From Caminibacter pacificus (GTDB taxonomy: Bacteria; Campylobacterota; Campylobacteria; Campylobacterales; Nautiliaceae), in the NCBI RefSeq assembly GCF_003752135.1, contig NZ_RJVK01000005.1:62001-126000 (forward strand): 64,000 bases of DNA, written 5' to 3'. Below are positions 33,549-39,150 of this stretch, one piece after another (the first letter of the stretch is position 1; every line of letters begins with the position of its first letter). Below the pieces are notes generated by a model. The model was given only the letters and a program-made list of their open reading frames with translations, did not search any database and was not told the origin of the DNA. A program made the position numbers and the translations under genes.

Positions 33549-34328
33549 ATGAGTGATATTTTAAAAATCGGAAAATACGAATTTACAAGCAGACTTATTG
33601 TAGGAAGCGGAAAATATCCTGATTTCAAAACAACACGCGACGCGACTCTTGCGAGCGGTGCGGAGATGATTACGGTAGCTGTTAGAAGAGTGAATATTTT
33701 AGACCCGAACGAAGAAAACTTAATGGACTATTTCAAAGACACCGACGTTCAAATTCTTCCGAATTCTGCCGGATGTACGACGGCGGAAGAAGCTATTACG
33801 CTTTTTAGACTTGTAAGGGAAGCTACGGGAATCGATATTATTAAACTCGAAGTTATCGGAGATACCGCAAAAACATTATATCCAGACGTACTTGAAACTC
33901 TAAAAGCTTGCGAAGTACTCGCAAAAGAAGATTTTACGGTTATGGCATACACAAACGACGATCCGATTATGGCAAAAAGACTCGAAAACGCAGGAGCTGC
34001 TGCGGTAATGCCTCTTGCTGCGCCTATCGGAAGCGGTCTTGGTGTTCAAAATAGATACAACGTAGTATTCGTAAAAGATGCCGTAAACGTACCGGTAATC
34101 GTAGATGCGGGGATTGGTACGGCAAGTGACGCGGCCGTAGCTATGGAGCTTGGGGCTGACGGAGTGCTTACGAATACGGCTATCGCTCAAGCAAAAAATC
34201 CTATTGCAATGGCAGAAGCAATGAAACACGCCGTAATTGCCGGAAGAATGGCGTATAAAGCCGGAAGAATTCCGAAAAAACCTTATGCTACGGCAAGTTC
34301 TCCTCTTGAGGGATTAATTGAATTCTAA
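33549..34328 (+). CDS. thiG: Thiazole synthase
   Basis: Makes the thiazole phosphate half of thiamine from deoxyxylulose phosphate, ThiS-thiocarboxylate and dehydroglycine. The 259 residues show [15 protein letters not shown] at the start, [21 protein letters not shown] with the catalytic Lys, [14 protein letters not shown] and [24 protein letters not shown] precedes the ATG. thiS, thiH and thiO are not in view. No TPP-riboswitch motif is visible in the 84 bp upstream. Confidence 0.96.
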
Positions 34329-35094
34329 TGTTTTAGAGAAAATCTTTTTTCTCTTTTTATTTCTTCTTTTAGTTTATATCATCTCCGCTTTATATCTCTA
34401 TTTGACGCAAAATTCAAAGGTTTTCCAAAGAAAATACGCAAAAGAATATACCCCGAAATACGCTAAAAAACTCTATTTTACAACAAGTGACGGGAAAAGA
34501 CTTGAGGGAGCTTATCTTGAAAATAAAAAAGGTGCTCCTTTAGTATTATATTTTAGCGGAAACGCAAATAACGTTATCGAGTTTATAGATAATATTGCCG
34601 TAAATATTAAAGATTATAACTTTTTGGGCTTTAATTATCCGGGATACGCCGGAAGCGAGGGTGAGCCGTGTGAAGAGTGTATTTTAAAATACGCACTCGA
34701 AATATTCGACAAATACAAACCTCAAATATTAATAGGGCGAAGTTTAGGTACGGCAGTGGCAACTTACGTTGCTGCAAATAGAGATGTTGAAAAGCTCGTG
34801 CTTATAACTCCTTTTGATAGTATCGAGCATATTGCTCAAATAAGATATCCGATTCTTCCGATATCTTTGCTATTAAAACATAAATTTAAAGAAGTGGAAT
34901 GGATAAAAAACGTTAAAGCTCCCGTAAGTGTTTTGTTTGTCAAAAATGATGACATTATTCCTCAAAAATCTATCGACAACCTCCTAAAACATATTCCAAA
35001 CCTAAATAAAAAAATCGAAATAGAGGGCGTAACCCACGGCCGGATATACGAATATCCGAATATTTCAAAAGTGATAGAGGAACTACTAAAATAA
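34318..35094 (+). CDS. Membrane-anchored alpha/beta hydrolase
   Basis: A 258-residue protein with an N-terminal membrane helix (8-29) and an alpha/beta-hydrolase domain. The nucleophile elbow is IGRSLGTA with Ser142, the oxyanion region is LYFSGNANN, the acid is likely Asp in FVKNDDIIP, and His is in [11 protein letters not shown]. It resembles BEM46/ABHD13-like proteins of unknown substrate. The start is a TTG that overlaps the thiG end by 11 bases, behind TTGAGGG; no in-frame ATG is available. Confidence 0.82.
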
Positions 35095-35103
35095 GGATTT
35101 GAA

Positions 35104-35448
35104 ATGATTGATTTCGATAAAAATAAAGCCTTAGAACTTGCCAAAAATCTCTCGGATAAATTTTCCGCCGAAGAGACTAAAGAATTTATTAAAAAGTTTT
35201 CCGACCTCTCTTTTATCGATGATTTGAAACTGCTTTTTGGGATGATTACGGACAAAGAATATAGCATCGATAAAAAAACATATCTTATAATCGCAGGAGC
35301 GATAGCATATGTCGTTTTGCCAACAGACATAATCCCCGATTTTATCCCCGGAGTAGGGTTTGTGGATGATGCTTTTGTTATCGGAATGGTAGTAAAACAA
35401 CTAAAAGATGAAATTGAGAGTTATAAGAGGTTTAAAGAAAATTTATAA
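35104..35448 (+). CDS. YkvA-like DUF1232 membrane protein
   Basis: A 114-residue protein of the DUF1232 family. The signature VLPTDIIPDFIPGVGFVDDA occupies about 77-96, following a hydrophobic helix (60-76). The N-terminal half is helical and charged. Function is unknown across the family. It lies 9 bp after the hydrolase gene and overlaps the converging WYL regulator by 6 bases. It marks the right edge of the conserved gene block before the accessory patch. Confidence 0.86.
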   Translation: MIDFDKNKALELAKNLSDKFSAEETKEFIKKFSDLSFIDDLKLLFGMITDKEYSIDKKTYLIIAGAIAYVVLPTDIIPDFIPGVGFVDDAFVIGMVVKQLKDEIESYKRFKENL

Positions 35449-36342
35449 TTTCATAAACTTTTCAATATATTGAATTATATAATTATCTACTTCTTTTTTT
35501 AACCATTTAGGACTTACTACTGCAAGATGTGGTATCCACATGAGAAGTTTATGAATTATTTCGTTTTTGTCGGTAATTTCAAGATAGATTGTAGAAGTTT
35601 CGTCACTGTTTTTGATAATTTTTTGAGTTTTTGATATCGGAATTCTTTGGAGATATTTAGTTGCAAATTCATCTGCAATTAGTTCCACTAAAAATGGTGT
35701 ACCTTTAGGCTTAAACCAAATATTAACAGCTTTATCAACATCTTTTAAAATGTTTTCTTTTATATCAAAAGTGTGATTAGTTACCTGAAGCTCATGAATG
35801 CTTTTAATATGATATGTTCTGTATTCGTTTTTGTGATTTAATGCATTTACGTACCAATATCCGTCGAAATTTGAAATTTTAATAGGTTTTATTTCCATAT
35901 TTATTAGTCTTTTATTCATTTTGTATTTCATTTTAATTATTTTTTTTTGTTTTATTGCTGTTTCTATTTTTTTTAAAATTTGAGGGTCTATTTTTTCTAT
36001 ATCAAATTTTGAATAAAAGACGTTTTCTTTACTTATAAGTTTTAACTTTGTAAGTAAGGGAGAGATTTTTTCTTCAATATCGGCATTTTTAGCAATTGAT
36101 AAGATTGCCTCGAAAATAGTCTCTTTTTCATTATCAATAATTGTGTCAAGATAGTATTTTTTGCCTTTTTTTTGGATATTAAATCCCGCTTCTCTTAGAT
36201 AATTTATATATCTTTGAGCCGTTCTTTTTGAAACACCGTATATTTTTTCAATATCTGATGTGCTTAGATTTTCACCTTGATAAAATTTATTAATCAATTG
36301 AAGCAAAATAGAAAGAGTTTTTGTATATTCTTTTGCTTTCAT
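35443..36342 (-). CDS. WYL-domain transcriptional regulator
   Basis: A 299-residue regulator with a winged helix-turn-helix at about 24-66 (TSDIEKIYGVSKRTAQRYINY) and a WYL domain at about 151-190 (PIKISNFDGYWYVNALNH, then EYRTYHIKSI). A C-terminal extension (WCX-like, 215-299) follows. WYL regulators of the BrxR/CapW kind sense nucleic-acid or nucleotide ligands and often repress anti-phage operons that they face. Here it diverges from three unknown genes across 89 bp containing an inverted repeat on a TATAAT box. Base composition is clearly A/T-richer than the neighbouring metabolic genes. Confidence 0.9.
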   Translation of the reverse strand: MKAKEYTKTLSILLQLINKFYQGENLSTSDIEKIYGVSKRTAQRYINYLREAGFNIQKKGKKYYLDTIIDNEKETIFEAILSIAKNADIEEKISPLLTKLKLISKENVFYSKFDIEKIDPQILKKIETAIKQKKIIKMKYKMNKRLINMEIKPIKISNFDGYWYVNALNHKNEYRTYHIKSIHELQVTNHTFDIKENILKDVDKAVNIWFKPKGTPFLVELIADEFATKYLQRIPISKTQKIIKNSDETSTIYLEITDKNEIIHKLLMWIPHLAVVSPKWLKKEVDNYIIQYIEKFMKL

Positions 36343-36388
36343 AAATAAGCCTTTTTTATTATTTTATCAAAAACGACACAATCTGAAC

Positions 36389-36414
36389 ATTTTGTTTTTT
36401 ATAATTAACAAAAT
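36389..36414. promoter_or_regulatory. Candidate WYL operator overlapping a -10 box
   Basis: ATTTTGTT (36389-36396) and AACAAAAT (36407-36414) are perfect 8-bp inverted arms around a 10-bp centre that contains TATAAT (36400-36405). The plus-strand gene begins at 36432 behind AAAGGG. A regulator bound here would block that promoter. Confidence 0.55.
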
Positions 36415-36431
36415 TAAACAAAAGGGTTTAA

Positions 36432-36983
36432 ATGTTGAAAATAAAAGATAGGATATCGTTATGTAAAAAGTTAGGTTATACTAATTTAACTGCGTGTTTG
36501 GAAAAAATTGAATATTTGGAACAAAATGGGATAGAAGAGTTTTTAAAAAAAGATTTTCCTTATGACTTTGTGCTTGGTAATGAAGTCTTTTTAAAAAAGG
36601 TTATTGAAATTTGTGGTGATGAAAAAGATTTAAAATTTTTTGAAAAGTTGAGAGAAAAAATGAGTAAAAAACCGGGAAGTTTATTTGTTAATACGAAATT
36701 CAAAAAAATCTCACAGCCGATTTTTTCGTTAGCTGCAATGCAAGGGTTATTAAATATTTCTATTGATAGAAAAAATTTTGAAGATAAAAGCCAAGAACTT
36801 GAATATGTTAAGTTTTATGTAAATAGGCATTATTTGGAAAATAACGGTAAGTTGAAGCTGTGGGGGAAAATTCAAGGTTATATTTATAAAAGTGATAGTT
36901 TTGATAAATATATCGTTTTTGATGTCGATGGTAATATAATAGATGAATTAGAAAACTTTAATCCAAAAAAAATTTTTAAATAG
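36432..36983 (+). CDS. Hypothetical protein of the WYL-linked cassette (gene 1)
   Basis: A 183-residue protein with no recognised family. The N-terminal half (1-85) looks helical (ISLCKKLGYTNL, ECLEK-like repeats); the C-terminal part (125-170) is rich in aromatic and beta-type residues (VKFYVNRHYL, LWGKIQGYIY, KYIVFDVDGNII). There is no signal or membrane segment. The start follows AAAGGG and a TATAAT box overlapped by the inverted repeat. It is followed after 8 bp by gene 2 with a strong AGGAGGAAGA site, so the genes are co-transcribed. Function unknown; a defence role is inference from context. Confidence 0.7.
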   Translation: MLKIKDRISLCKKLGYTNLTACLEKIEYLEQNGIEEFLKKDFPYDFVLGNEVFLKKVIEICGDEKDLKFFEKLREKMSKKPGSLFVNTKFKKISQPIFSLAAMQGLLNISIDRKNFEDKSQELEYVKFYVNRHYLENNGKLKLWGKIQGYIYKSDSFDKYIVFDVDGNIIDELENFNPKKIFK

Positions 36984-36991
36984 GAGGAAGA

Positions 36992-37756
36992 ATGAAAAAT
37001 CAATATTTCGGAGATATTCATGATTTTAAAAAATATACGTTGTTAAATTGGTTTATGAAAGGATGTAATGATAAGTTAATGGTTGCTTGGTATCTAACTA
37101 ATGATGACGATTCATCTGACGGAGGAAAGAAAAAGTATCTTGAGGAAAAGATTGATAAAGAAAATAAAGAATTTGAAAAAAACAAACATATAGGAATTTG
37201 TAATAGGGAGCTGTTTGAATTTTTAGTGAAAAATCATCAGAAAAAAAATATTGGGGTAATTATGGAAAAAACGAATAAGAAATATATTTGTGAAAATGGA
37301 AATATTTCGTTTTTTGATAAAAAATTAGATGATATGGATAGAAAGGAATGGTTTAATGAATTAAAACAAGAATTAAACAAAACACAATGCGATATAGTTT
37401 TTACGGATCCTGATAACGGTATAAAATTTAATAATGAAGAATCAAAAAAACATATAAAACTGTCTGAAATTAAAGAATTATGGAAAATGGGAAAATCTTT
37501 AATTGTTTATCAACATTTTTTAATGGTGGATCATCAAGTATTAATGGCGGGTTTGATTTATAGATTATATAATGAATTAAAAGCTATTAATAAACCTTTC
37601 GTGGCAATTGTATATTCCTCTAACGTAGCAATGATTTTTATTTTGCAGCAAAAACATAAAAAACAGTTTGAGAGTCTAAAAAAACAGCTTGAAAAATGTA
37701 AAGATTTGAAGTTTTTAGATATTTTTTCTTTTAACAGTGAAAATATTAAAATATAG
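36992..37756 (+). CDS. Conserved protein with NQYFGD and DPDNG motifs, WYL-linked cassette (gene 2)
   Basis: A 254-residue protein. The N-terminus NQYFGDIHDFKKYTLLNW (3-20) and the later block IVFTDPDNGIKF (about 137-148), then KSLIVYQHF, match a scattered bacterial family that I remember only as hypothetical proteins. The alternating hydrophobic strands and the acidic DPDNG turn suggest a Rossmann-like or methyltransferase/nuclease-like fold, but no known catalytic set is certain. It is the most conserved-looking member of the cassette and its likely enzymatic part. Translation signal is strong (TAGGAGGAAGA before ATG). Confidence 0.75.
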   Translation: MKNQYFGDIHDFKKYTLLNWFMKGCNDKLMVAWYLTNDDDSSDGGKKKYLEEKIDKENKEFEKNKHIGICNRELFEFLVKNHQKKNIGVIMEKTNKKYICENGNISFFDKKLDDMDRKEWFNELKQELNKTQCDIVFTDPDNGIKFNNEESKKHIKLSEIKELWKMGKSLIVYQHFLMVDHQVLMAGLIYRLYNELKAINKPFVAIVYSSNVAMIFILQQKHKKQFESLKKQLEKCKDLKFLDIFSFNSENIKI

Positions 37757-37761
37757 TTGGC

Positions 37762-38097
37762 ATGAAAAAGCATAGAGTCGGTGAGATATGTTTTTATGTA
37801 GAGATTGATAATATTATTACAAAAGCTATGGTGAATTTTCTAAAATATATGGAAAAAAACGATAGTTACGGTTTTTTATTCTATAGGATTTTAGATAGTA
37901 AAAAACTAAGATTTTATGGAAAGTTTGAAGAAATCAACGAATTATTAGACAAAAGCAAGTTTTATTTTTTCTTTTTAAATGATACTGAAGAGAGTTATTT
38001 TAATAAAATTTATTCTGATATTGAAAGTTTTGAAAATTATATTATGGGCTTTCATAAAATAGATAATGAAACATATGTGTTTGAAATAATCGATTAA
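37762..38097 (+). CDS. Hypothetical protein of the WYL-linked cassette (gene 3)
   Basis: A 111-residue protein of unknown family, starting 5 bp after gene 2, so it is presumably in the same transcript. It has mixed alpha/beta character with aromatic patches (CFYVEIDN, YGFLFYRIL, YFFFLND) and an acidic C-terminus (YVFEIID). The ribosome site is weak (GTTGG), so its translation may depend on coupling to gene 2. A small partner, such as an immunity or accessory protein for gene 2, would fit, but nothing in the sequence proves it. Confidence 0.6.
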   Translation: MKKHRVGEICFYVEIDNIITKAMVNFLKYMEKNDSYGFLFYRILDSKKLRFYGKFEEINELLDKSKFYFFFLNDTEESYFNKIYSDIESFENYIMGFHKIDNETYVFEIID

Positions 38098-38257
38098 TTT
38101 TTATATTAAGGAACTTATAAGAGAACAATTAAAAAAATATCCAACCTAAAATACTTTCTATAAAAAGAGCAGATAGTGATGCAAATATTATAAATTTTAT
38201 TTAGATTTATAAAAAATTCTCTATCAAAAAGCAAAAAAATATTTTATTATCTATTTT

Positions 38258-38455
38258 TTATTCGGATAGTAATGAATTTAATAGTGATAAAATAATCGCA
38301 GTTATGGGTAGGGCAAGCAATCCGAAAAATAAACTTCCTACAAGCGCTACACTAAAAGACGAGGATGTAGGAAGTGTAATCAAAAGAATTACAAAAAAAC
38401 TTAACAAATATCCTAAAAATATATTATCCATAAATGTTTGAAGTATTTTTTTCAT
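38258..38455 (-). CDS. Possible small membrane protein
   Basis: A 65-residue open frame with two strongly hydrophobic segments (about 12-30 and 36-60), in a gene-poor A/T-rich stretch. No ribosome site is obvious before the ATG at 38455. The surrounding 38098-38257 and 38456-38569 hold no other gene that I can support. It may be a remnant of the accessory patch or a toxin-like small hydrophobic peptide; the call rests only on the hydrophobic pattern. Confidence 0.35.
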   Translation of the reverse strand: MKKILQTFMDNIFLGYLLSFFVILLITLPTSSSFSVALVGSLFFGLLALPITAIILSLLNSLLSE

Positions 38456-38569
38456 ATGATAAGTATATCATTATTTGAAGTAAAAACGGATTGATGTTTT
38501 GTAGGCAAATTAGTCGGGCGATTTAAAAACGAGTTTTAAAAAAAGTTTTACAAAACAACGAACATTTTT

Positions 38570-38588
38570 GGGGGTAATAGTGGGGGTA
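38570..38588. repeat. GGGGGTA direct repeat, possible integration (att/arm) remnant
   Basis: GGGGGTA occurs at 38570-38576 and 38582-38588, 12 bp apart, in otherwise A/T-rich DNA 54 bp from the 3' end of tRNA-Ser. Similar paired GGGGGTA tracts often sit at tRNA-linked integrase attachment regions. No integrase gene is visible, so it could be a scar. Confidence 0.45.
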
Positions 38589-38641
38589 TGATTAACTATC
38601 TTTGTGAATTAGCGAAATTTAGGGATTTTTGAGACATTGAA

Positions 38642-38731
<90 letters not shown>

Positions 38732-38764
38732 ACAAAAAATTGATAACTCAGATATAAGTTGCAG

Positions 38765-38853
38765 TGGTGCCCGGGGCCGGACTCGAACCGGCACGGGAAA
38801 AACTCCCGAGGGATTTTAAGTCCCTTGCGTCTACCAAATTCCGCCACCCGGGC
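38765..38853 (-). tRNA. tRNA-Leu (UAA)
   Basis: An 89-base class II tRNA with encoded CCA. The acceptor stem GCCCGGG pairs with CCCGGGC, discriminator A. The loop CTTAAAA between AGGGA and TCCCT gives anticodon UAA. The long variable arm CGGGAGTTTTTCCCG supports leucine identity. Confidence 0.96.
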
Positions 38854-38896
38854 ATGGAAGTGAAAGTATATCAAAACATACTTAAAAATAACTTAA

Positions 38897-38971
38897 TGGA
38901 GGCGCCACCCGGATTCGAACCGGGGATCAGGGCTTTGCAGGCCCCTGCCTTAGCCACTTGGCTATGGCGCC
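38897..38971 (-). tRNA. tRNA-Cys (GCA)
   Basis: A 75-base tRNA with encoded CCA. The acceptor stem is GGCGCCA/TGGCGCC and the discriminator is U, the known identity base for cysteine tRNA. The loop CTGCAAA gives anticodon GCA. Confidence 0.96.
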
Positions 38972-38974
38972 GAT

Positions 38975-38998
38975 GTAAATTCAAAGCTTTGAATTTAC
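38975..38998. repeat. 24-bp perfect palindrome between tRNA-Cys and tRNA-Gly
   Basis: GTAAATTCAAAG (38975-38986) is followed directly by its exact reverse complement CTTTGAATTTAC (38987-38998). It fills the whole spacer between the two tRNAs apart from 3 bases. In the transcript it would form a hairpin, perhaps for processing. Confidence 0.75.
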
Positions 38999-39075
38999 TG
39001 GAGCGGGCTACGGGACTCGAACCCGCGACCTCCACCTTGGCAAGGTGGCGCTCTAGCCAACTGAGCTAAGCCCGC
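38999..39075 (-). tRNA. tRNA-Gly (GCC)
   Basis: A 77-base tRNA with encoded CCA. The acceptor stem is GCGGGCT/AGCCCGC, discriminator U. The loop TTGCCAA between CCACC and GGTGG gives anticodon GCC. It is the first tRNA of the cluster, just below the promoter. Confidence 0.96.
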
Positions 39076-39092
39076 ATTGTTATTGGACTGAA

Positions 39093-39121
39093 ATTATATA
39101 AAAAAAAAGAAAAAAAAGCAA
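39093..39121 (-). promoter_or_regulatory. Promoter of the tRNA cluster
   Basis: On the minus strand, TTGCTT (39116-39121), 17 bp, TATAAT (39093-39098), 18 bases before the 5' end of tRNA-Gly. A long T tract fills the spacer. Confidence 0.65.
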
Positions 39122-39124
39122 TAT

Positions 39125-39150
39125 TCCTAAGATTAAATTATAACTTAGGA
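39125..39150 (-). terminator. Possible terminator of pckA
   Basis: TCCTAAG and CTTAGGA (39125-39131 and 39144-39150) form a 7-bp stem over the pckA stop. A T-rich stretch follows after about ten bases on the minus strand, where it overlaps the tRNA promoter. Confidence 0.45.

Follow-up and report, generated by a model that had tools for sequence, protein, structure and literature searches.

Among the WYL-domain regulators that have been described, CapW, which belongs to cyclic-oligonucleotide-based anti-phage signalling systems (CBASS), and BrxR, which belongs to bacteriophage exclusion (BREX) islands, are repressors (PMC9122588, PMC9122601). DriD works on a divergent operon, where its site lies over a poor −35 element at a constant distance from the −10 box (PMC12340889). 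WYL regulators are also parts, together with phosphatases, Macro and nuclease genes, of a proposed group of systems centred on ADP-ribosylglycohydrolase (ARG), in which variable modules have accreted (PMC9503650, Iyer et al. 2022). The locus considered here lies in a window of 64,000 nucleotides, a piece of one contig (NZ_RJVK01000005.1, positions 62,001 to 126,000) of the 1.86 Mb genome of Caminibacter pacificus, where a gene for a WYL regulator faces three close-set genes that we call A, B and C (Table 1). There is, in our judgement, about an even chance that these four genes form a horizontally acquired, WYL-switched defence cassette with A-B-C as its cargo. Evidence from regulation and genome comparison is strong, while the mechanism of the effector is hypothesized.

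The regulator has orthologues of 65-77% identity in five other genomes among the relatives searched, and alignment of the six loci reveals a conserved block in the promoter region where 25 of 34 columns are invariant, while outside the block this is true of 9 of 46 intergenic columns. The conserved site spans 31-32 bp, the copy in G032 having a 1-bp deletion, and contains an imperfect dyad whose best form, TTTTTGATA-N4-TATCAAAAA, is found in G010. It overlaps the −35 hexamer of the A-B-C promoter, which is poor (CACAAT), and is separated from the −10 box by exactly 18 bp in all six loci. When 60 genomes were searched with a strict pattern, which weaker sites could escape, the site occurred once per genome and in five genomes only, each time with its cognate WYL gene; the reversed control pattern gave 0 sites. 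An earlier note on this DNA, made from the letters alone, had pointed instead to a perfect 8-bp inverted repeat around the −10 box. The repeat is indeed present (ATTTTGTT at 36389-36396 and AACAAAAT at 36407-36414), but we rejected it as an operator, as it is kept in none of the five relatives with the cognate regulator and such a repeat arises at chance level, in 9.9% of shuffled versions of the A/T-rich intergenic sequence. The conserved element lies just upstream of it.

Behind this shared switch, the divergent cargo varies while the WYL gene and the promoter site are kept. The cargo of G015 is A-B, without C and with toxin-antitoxin-like genes beside it, and that of the sister species G001 is A, a DUF429 gene and a fusion of B with C. 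In G010, two small genes are followed by a PP2C gene, a PD-(D/E)XK nuclease, an unknown gene, A and GmrSD_C, whereas G032 carries esterase-like, N-formylglutamate amidohydrolase-like, PLD and helicase-like genes, and G019, on a short contig, chiefly transposase-like genes. PDC is the label that PADLOC gives to phage defence candidates, and two of these operons match such models behind the same site: PDC-M27B (2e-84) and PDC-M27C (7e-104) in G032, and PDC-S26 (2e-89), alongside PP2C and GmrSD_C, in G010. A GmrSD-like gene is found at a more distant WYL/A locus, in G002. Judged from these matches, the WYL regulator and its site appear to drive defence candidates in two relatives, by which the idea of a defence role is supported. 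In relatives, PDC-M27, PDC-S26, PDC-M62 and PDC-S06 are found behind the same switch, in the insertion slot that the cassette fills here, or close to B, and in this they are comparable to the cassette; in sequence, none of them was seen to be related to A, B or C.

The chromosomal setting is equally variable. The cassette occupies a slot between a ThiG/hydrolase pair and a block made up of the tRNA-Ser to tRNA-Gly cluster and the phosphoenolpyruvate carboxykinase (PEPCK) gene. The slot is orthologous in eight relatives, with the same four tRNAs in place (G006 is without the hydrolase), and the cassette is absent from it in all eight. In G012 it holds a single 133-aa gene, and in G008, a sister species, SbcCD-like genes, the Septu-like PDC-M62A/B (4e-132, 2e-71) and Fic. 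The earlier note is supported to the extent that the cassette is a strain-variable insertion in a defence-like context. Base composition also sets the cassette apart, with 25% G+C over 36-38 kb versus ~36% around it, as the earlier note had observed of an A/T-rich patch, and a third-position G+C of 0.19-0.22 versus ~0.30-0.34 in the flanking genes. Two of the related loci lie at tRNA genes. The G010 island (L066 4442-15082, ~10.6 kb) sits in tRNA-Ser(GCT), is bounded by 19-bp att repeats of the tRNA-Ser 3′ end, and carries an excisionase-like gene and an integrase together with WYL, PP2C, PDC-S26, gene A and GmrSD_C, and the end of the G001 cassette lies 5 bp from tRNA-Ala. In the window, a GGGGTA..GGGGTA pair of a kind seen in 0.05% of shuffles of 4.1 kb stands next to tRNA-Ser; it is possibly a relic of an integrase arm site, because the same motif is found 80-281 bp upstream of the start of P4-type integrases in 3 of the 15 viral contigs that carry it.

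The slot as a whole, from the hydrolase to tRNA-Ser (window 34318-39138; L194-L204), is a family-wide hot spot whose contents are different in almost every genome; on its ThiG/hydrolase side, G004 has an adjoining integrase-like gene. The arrangement of the cassette itself, with gaps of 8 bp between A and B and 5 bp between B and C, and the four tRNA genes beyond it were re-derived and agree with the earlier description.

Table 1. Features of the WYL/A-B-C locus, in positions of the window.
Feature	Position	Strand	Remark
WYL regulator, 299 aa	35443-36342	(-)	Opposite to A-B-C
Conserved promoter site (putative operator) CCTTTTTTATTATTTTATCAAAAACGACACAA	36350-36381	none	From the alignment of six loci
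-10 box TATAAT of the A-B-C operon	36400-36405	(+)	18 bp after the conserved site
Gene A, 183 aa	36432-36983	(+)	Found repeatedly with WYL regulators; matches no known family or fold
Gene B, 254 aa	36992-37756	(+)	NQYFGD/DPDNG family; putative RlmJ-like methyltransferase-type fold; presumed effector
Gene C, 111 aa	37762-38097	(+)	Probable small accessory; in sister species G001 its counterpart is a domain at the C-terminal end of B
Direct repeats GGGGTAATAGTGGGGGTA beside the tRNA-Ser 3′ end	38571-38588	(+)	Perhaps left over from an integrase arm site
tRNA-Ser, Leu, Cys, Gly cluster	38642-39075	(-)	ARAGORN; one boundary of the insertion slot

Gene A, and not gene B, is the gene that recurs as the partner of WYL regulators. 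Homologues of A are present in 27 of 150 relatives, mostly at loci without B. Where A and WYL genes were both sought in a genome, 7 of 11 A genes have a WYL gene no more than 6.5 kb away, versus 0.5% expected, a linkage with P ~4e-14, or ~6e-8 when close relatives are counted once. The neighbours of A include ADP-ribosylglycohydrolase, Macro, PP2C, calcineurin-type phosphatase, SLOG, GmrSD and DUF429 genes. Its AlphaFold model reaches a predicted local distance difference test (pLDDT) score of 90, with no fold match in the PDB at E <= 0.001, and its profile was too diverged for a contig scan. Unannotated families of ~205, 256 and 305 aa also recur around WYL/A loci (L069, L077, L081, L066, L071).

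Gene C matches the C-terminal part of the 346-aa B-C fusion protein of G001 (BLASTP E=1e-9), and no other convincing copy of it was found in our searches. The model confidence for the C domain is too low for its fold to be used. The earlier note had suggested that this 111-residue product might be a small accessory or an immunity protein; because its equivalent is fused to B in G001, C is probably the former, an accessory part of B.

Gene B belongs to a large family, with 486 homologous stretches in bacteria and archaea (GTDB set, one genome per species). The NQYFGD (residues 3-8) and DPDNG (139-143) motifs, both singled out in the earlier note, are the most conserved parts of this family, the N-terminal consensus of which is MK[ND]QYFGD[IV]NDYRKYGLLR; the invariant or near-invariant positions are Y5, D8, D11, K14, W33, D43, G44, R117, D139-P-D-N-G143, K153, E159, Y173 and H175. 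In a model of the G001 fusion protein, built with 69 sequences, the B part has a pLDDT mostly >90, and the top Foldseek matches are to the RlmJ/DUF519 family (2oo3/4blw/6qe5), followed by other methyltransferases. The RlmJ-family matches have E values of 2e-5 to 1e-3 and a probability of ~1 with template modelling (TM) scores of only 0.33-0.45, which are low partly because the poorly modelled C part was included in the query; a viral fold library gave weak, mixed matches only. RlmJ, the 23S rRNA N6-methyladenosine (m6A) methyltransferase (DUF519, PF04378), needs Y4, H6, K18 and D164, with D15 positioning K18, and Y4, K18 and D164 are essential by mutation (PMC3814359). Residues Y5, D11-x2-K14 and D139 of B lie in apparently matching places to Y4, D15, K18 and D164 of RlmJ, such that both proteins have a Y..D-x2-K tail at the N-terminus and, at the place of motif IV, a D-P pair. 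From the model and these residues, we infer that B either is a methyltransferase directed at adenine, though a divergent one, or descends from such an enzyme, and its enzyme-like conserved core and putative RlmJ-like fold agree with the earlier suggestion that the middle gene encodes the enzymatic effector. A phmmer match of B to a calcineurin chain (8e-6) was dropped, as it concerned a single outlying chain over 68 residues and was gone when the family profile was used.

With tblastn, no copy of B was found in phage records, and a plasmid collection contained two records only. Elsewhere, a B homologue stands near PDC-S06 in G007, and another lies between McrBC and HNH-like/type I restriction-modification genes on a viral contig. 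That contig (L107 21-11730, from IMG/VR) is a dense defence island in its own right, comprising a McrBC pair, the B homologue and HNH-like, SLOG-like, small restriction-endonuclease-like and type I restriction-modification genes. In two Dehalococcoidia and a Thermoplasmata archaeon (L144 4278-9682, L147, L133), B homologues are found beside DUF7002 and a kinase-adenylosuccinate-synthetase fusion, apparently a recurrent, undescribed operon, which in L144 also has protease-like and dCTP deaminase-like genes.

The regulator has the domain order HTH (residues 14-64), WYL (122-187) and WCX (222-285), with Pfam scores of 1e-7 for HTH_11, 6e-9 for WYL and 6e-5 for WCX, the last being 0.2 bits below the cut-off, and it is matched by the PADLOC WYL model at 2e-22. 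A second WYL regulator, 40% identical to it, is encoded in the host genome (G000:C1:698366-699217). The earlier note had placed the protein with the BrxR/CapW kind, and this holds for the shared architecture of winged helix-turn-helix (wHTH), WYL and WCX, as it does for the adjacent variable cargo of candidate defence genes and for a putative cis site near the promoter. Among solved proteins, PafBC and DriD come closest, as a profile of the WYL group gave 3e-7 for PafBC and 4e-5 for DriD, ahead of BrxR (7qfz, 3.5e-3) and CapW (9c5g, 8e-3), with all of these matches being weak; we take 7qfz to be BrxR and 8tp8/7tzv to be DriD. Unlike the BrxR and CapW arrangements, the site here overlaps the −35 region at a fixed −10 spacing and does not lie between the promoter and the gene, and the cargo families are undescribed.

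In the mechanism that we propose, the WYL regulator would bind the putative site over the −35 region and gate transcription of A-B-C on a nucleic-acid or nucleotide signal arising from infection or DNA damage, either activating it as DriD does or repressing it as CapW does. Of these two, we lean slightly to activation because the arrangement of DriD, by analogy, matches that of the locus. The effector would be B, a Rossmann enzyme resembling RlmJ whose most likely activity is the modification of nucleic acid; C would be its accessory part, while A may be an adaptor common to many such operons.

The neighbours of A and B suggest a rival explanation. WYL and ADP-ribosylglycohydrolase genes accompany homologues of A at two loci (L070, L077) and a Macro gene does so at L072, others pair WYL with PP2C, a calcineurin-type phosphatase or SLOG, and in Saccharospirillum (L152) a B homologue lies directly downstream of an ADP-ribosylglycohydrolase gene. 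The cassette could on these grounds be a stripped member of the WYL/Nudix-controlled, ARG-centred systems that have been proposed to undo phage-directed ADP-ribosylation; A would then help by binding the substrate, and B would act on a product that contains adenine. We consider this improbable, if far from negligible: the window operon contains no ADP-ribosylglycohydrolase (PF03747), Macro or phosphatase gene, and A is without the invariant cysteine reported for ARPP. Because the defining ADP-ribosylglycohydrolase is missing, the cassette was not filed with these systems. That PafBC and DriD are the closest solved relatives, and that a divergent operon with the site over a poor −35 at a fixed −10 distance is the layout of DriD, would also suit an operon of the DriD/PafBC type that responds to DNA damage, in which the WYL protein binds single-stranded DNA and turns on repair-related genes, with phage being one trigger or none. 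This explanation, too, we hold to be rather unlikely, as the genomes appear to have one strict, self-linked site each and not a regulon, and the cargo is variable and lineage-specific and does not consist of conserved DNA-repair genes.

A defence cassette with B as its enzymatic effector has several results weighing against it. Neither A, B nor C has a meaningful match in Pfam, NCBIfam, PHROGs or PADLOC (PADLOC-DB 2.0), where the WYL regulator alone matched known models. Neither an integrase nor an att repeat was found in the window slot, the direct repeats that flank the cassette being 10-mers only. In B, DPDNG stands in place of DPPY, and the consensus W-x-L-T-P-D-D-G-x2-D-G is found with no glycine-rich motif I; the B profile gave no hhalign match to RlmJ, and PF04378 is neither matched by B nor found in its own genome. 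The likeness to RlmJ is therefore at the level of the fold only, and the catalysis of B is uncertain. Most of the 76 B homologues examined have no shared neighbour, and two other lineages of the phylum have vertically inherited, syntenic B branches, so membership of the B family does not in itself mean defence. The earlier note had named such housekeeping inheritance, along with synteny of the cassette, as speaking against its idea, and it is the synteny that the relatives do not show. The syntenic branches and the putative RlmJ-like fold would be expected if B methylated RNA as a housekeeping-type enzyme and a mobile island carried the cassette along as a neutral passenger; this is very unlikely in our view, as no more than 5 of 150 relatives have a B homologue at the sensitivity used, one of these being a broken 30% match, and B of the window type sits in operons that can be exchanged behind a conserved switch. 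A toxin-antitoxin module, with C or A neutralising B, would likewise fit the small genes side by side on a mobile segment and the toxin-antitoxin-like genes beside the G015 copy, yet C is fused to B in G001 and missing in G015, and A mostly occurs without B, which leaves that explanation highly improbable. What lasts of the candidate undescribed defence cassette first put forward in the earlier note is thus its variable insertion, its defence-like context and its enzyme-like B, without the inverted repeat, the immunity protein or B as the defining gene.

For the defence cassette that we favour, a wider proposal can be made, tentatively, and we would sooner doubt it than assume it. The WYL regulator and its 32-bp site may form a portable, ligand-gated promoter unit, often accompanied by A, behind which unrelated defence genes are swapped between species, and B may be the founder of an undescribed class of defence effectors that modify nucleic acid, have a DPDNG active site on an RlmJ-like fold and extend across bacteria and archaea. 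If this is true, a regulator and its promoter site would stay fixed while the defence cargo is exchanged, and the operator would be directly testable, as would the question of whether a defence-linked WYL protein activates or represses. A search with the 32-bp site would then be a route to new defence genes, and the cassette would provide the first functional lead for two sizeable unannotated families, A and B.

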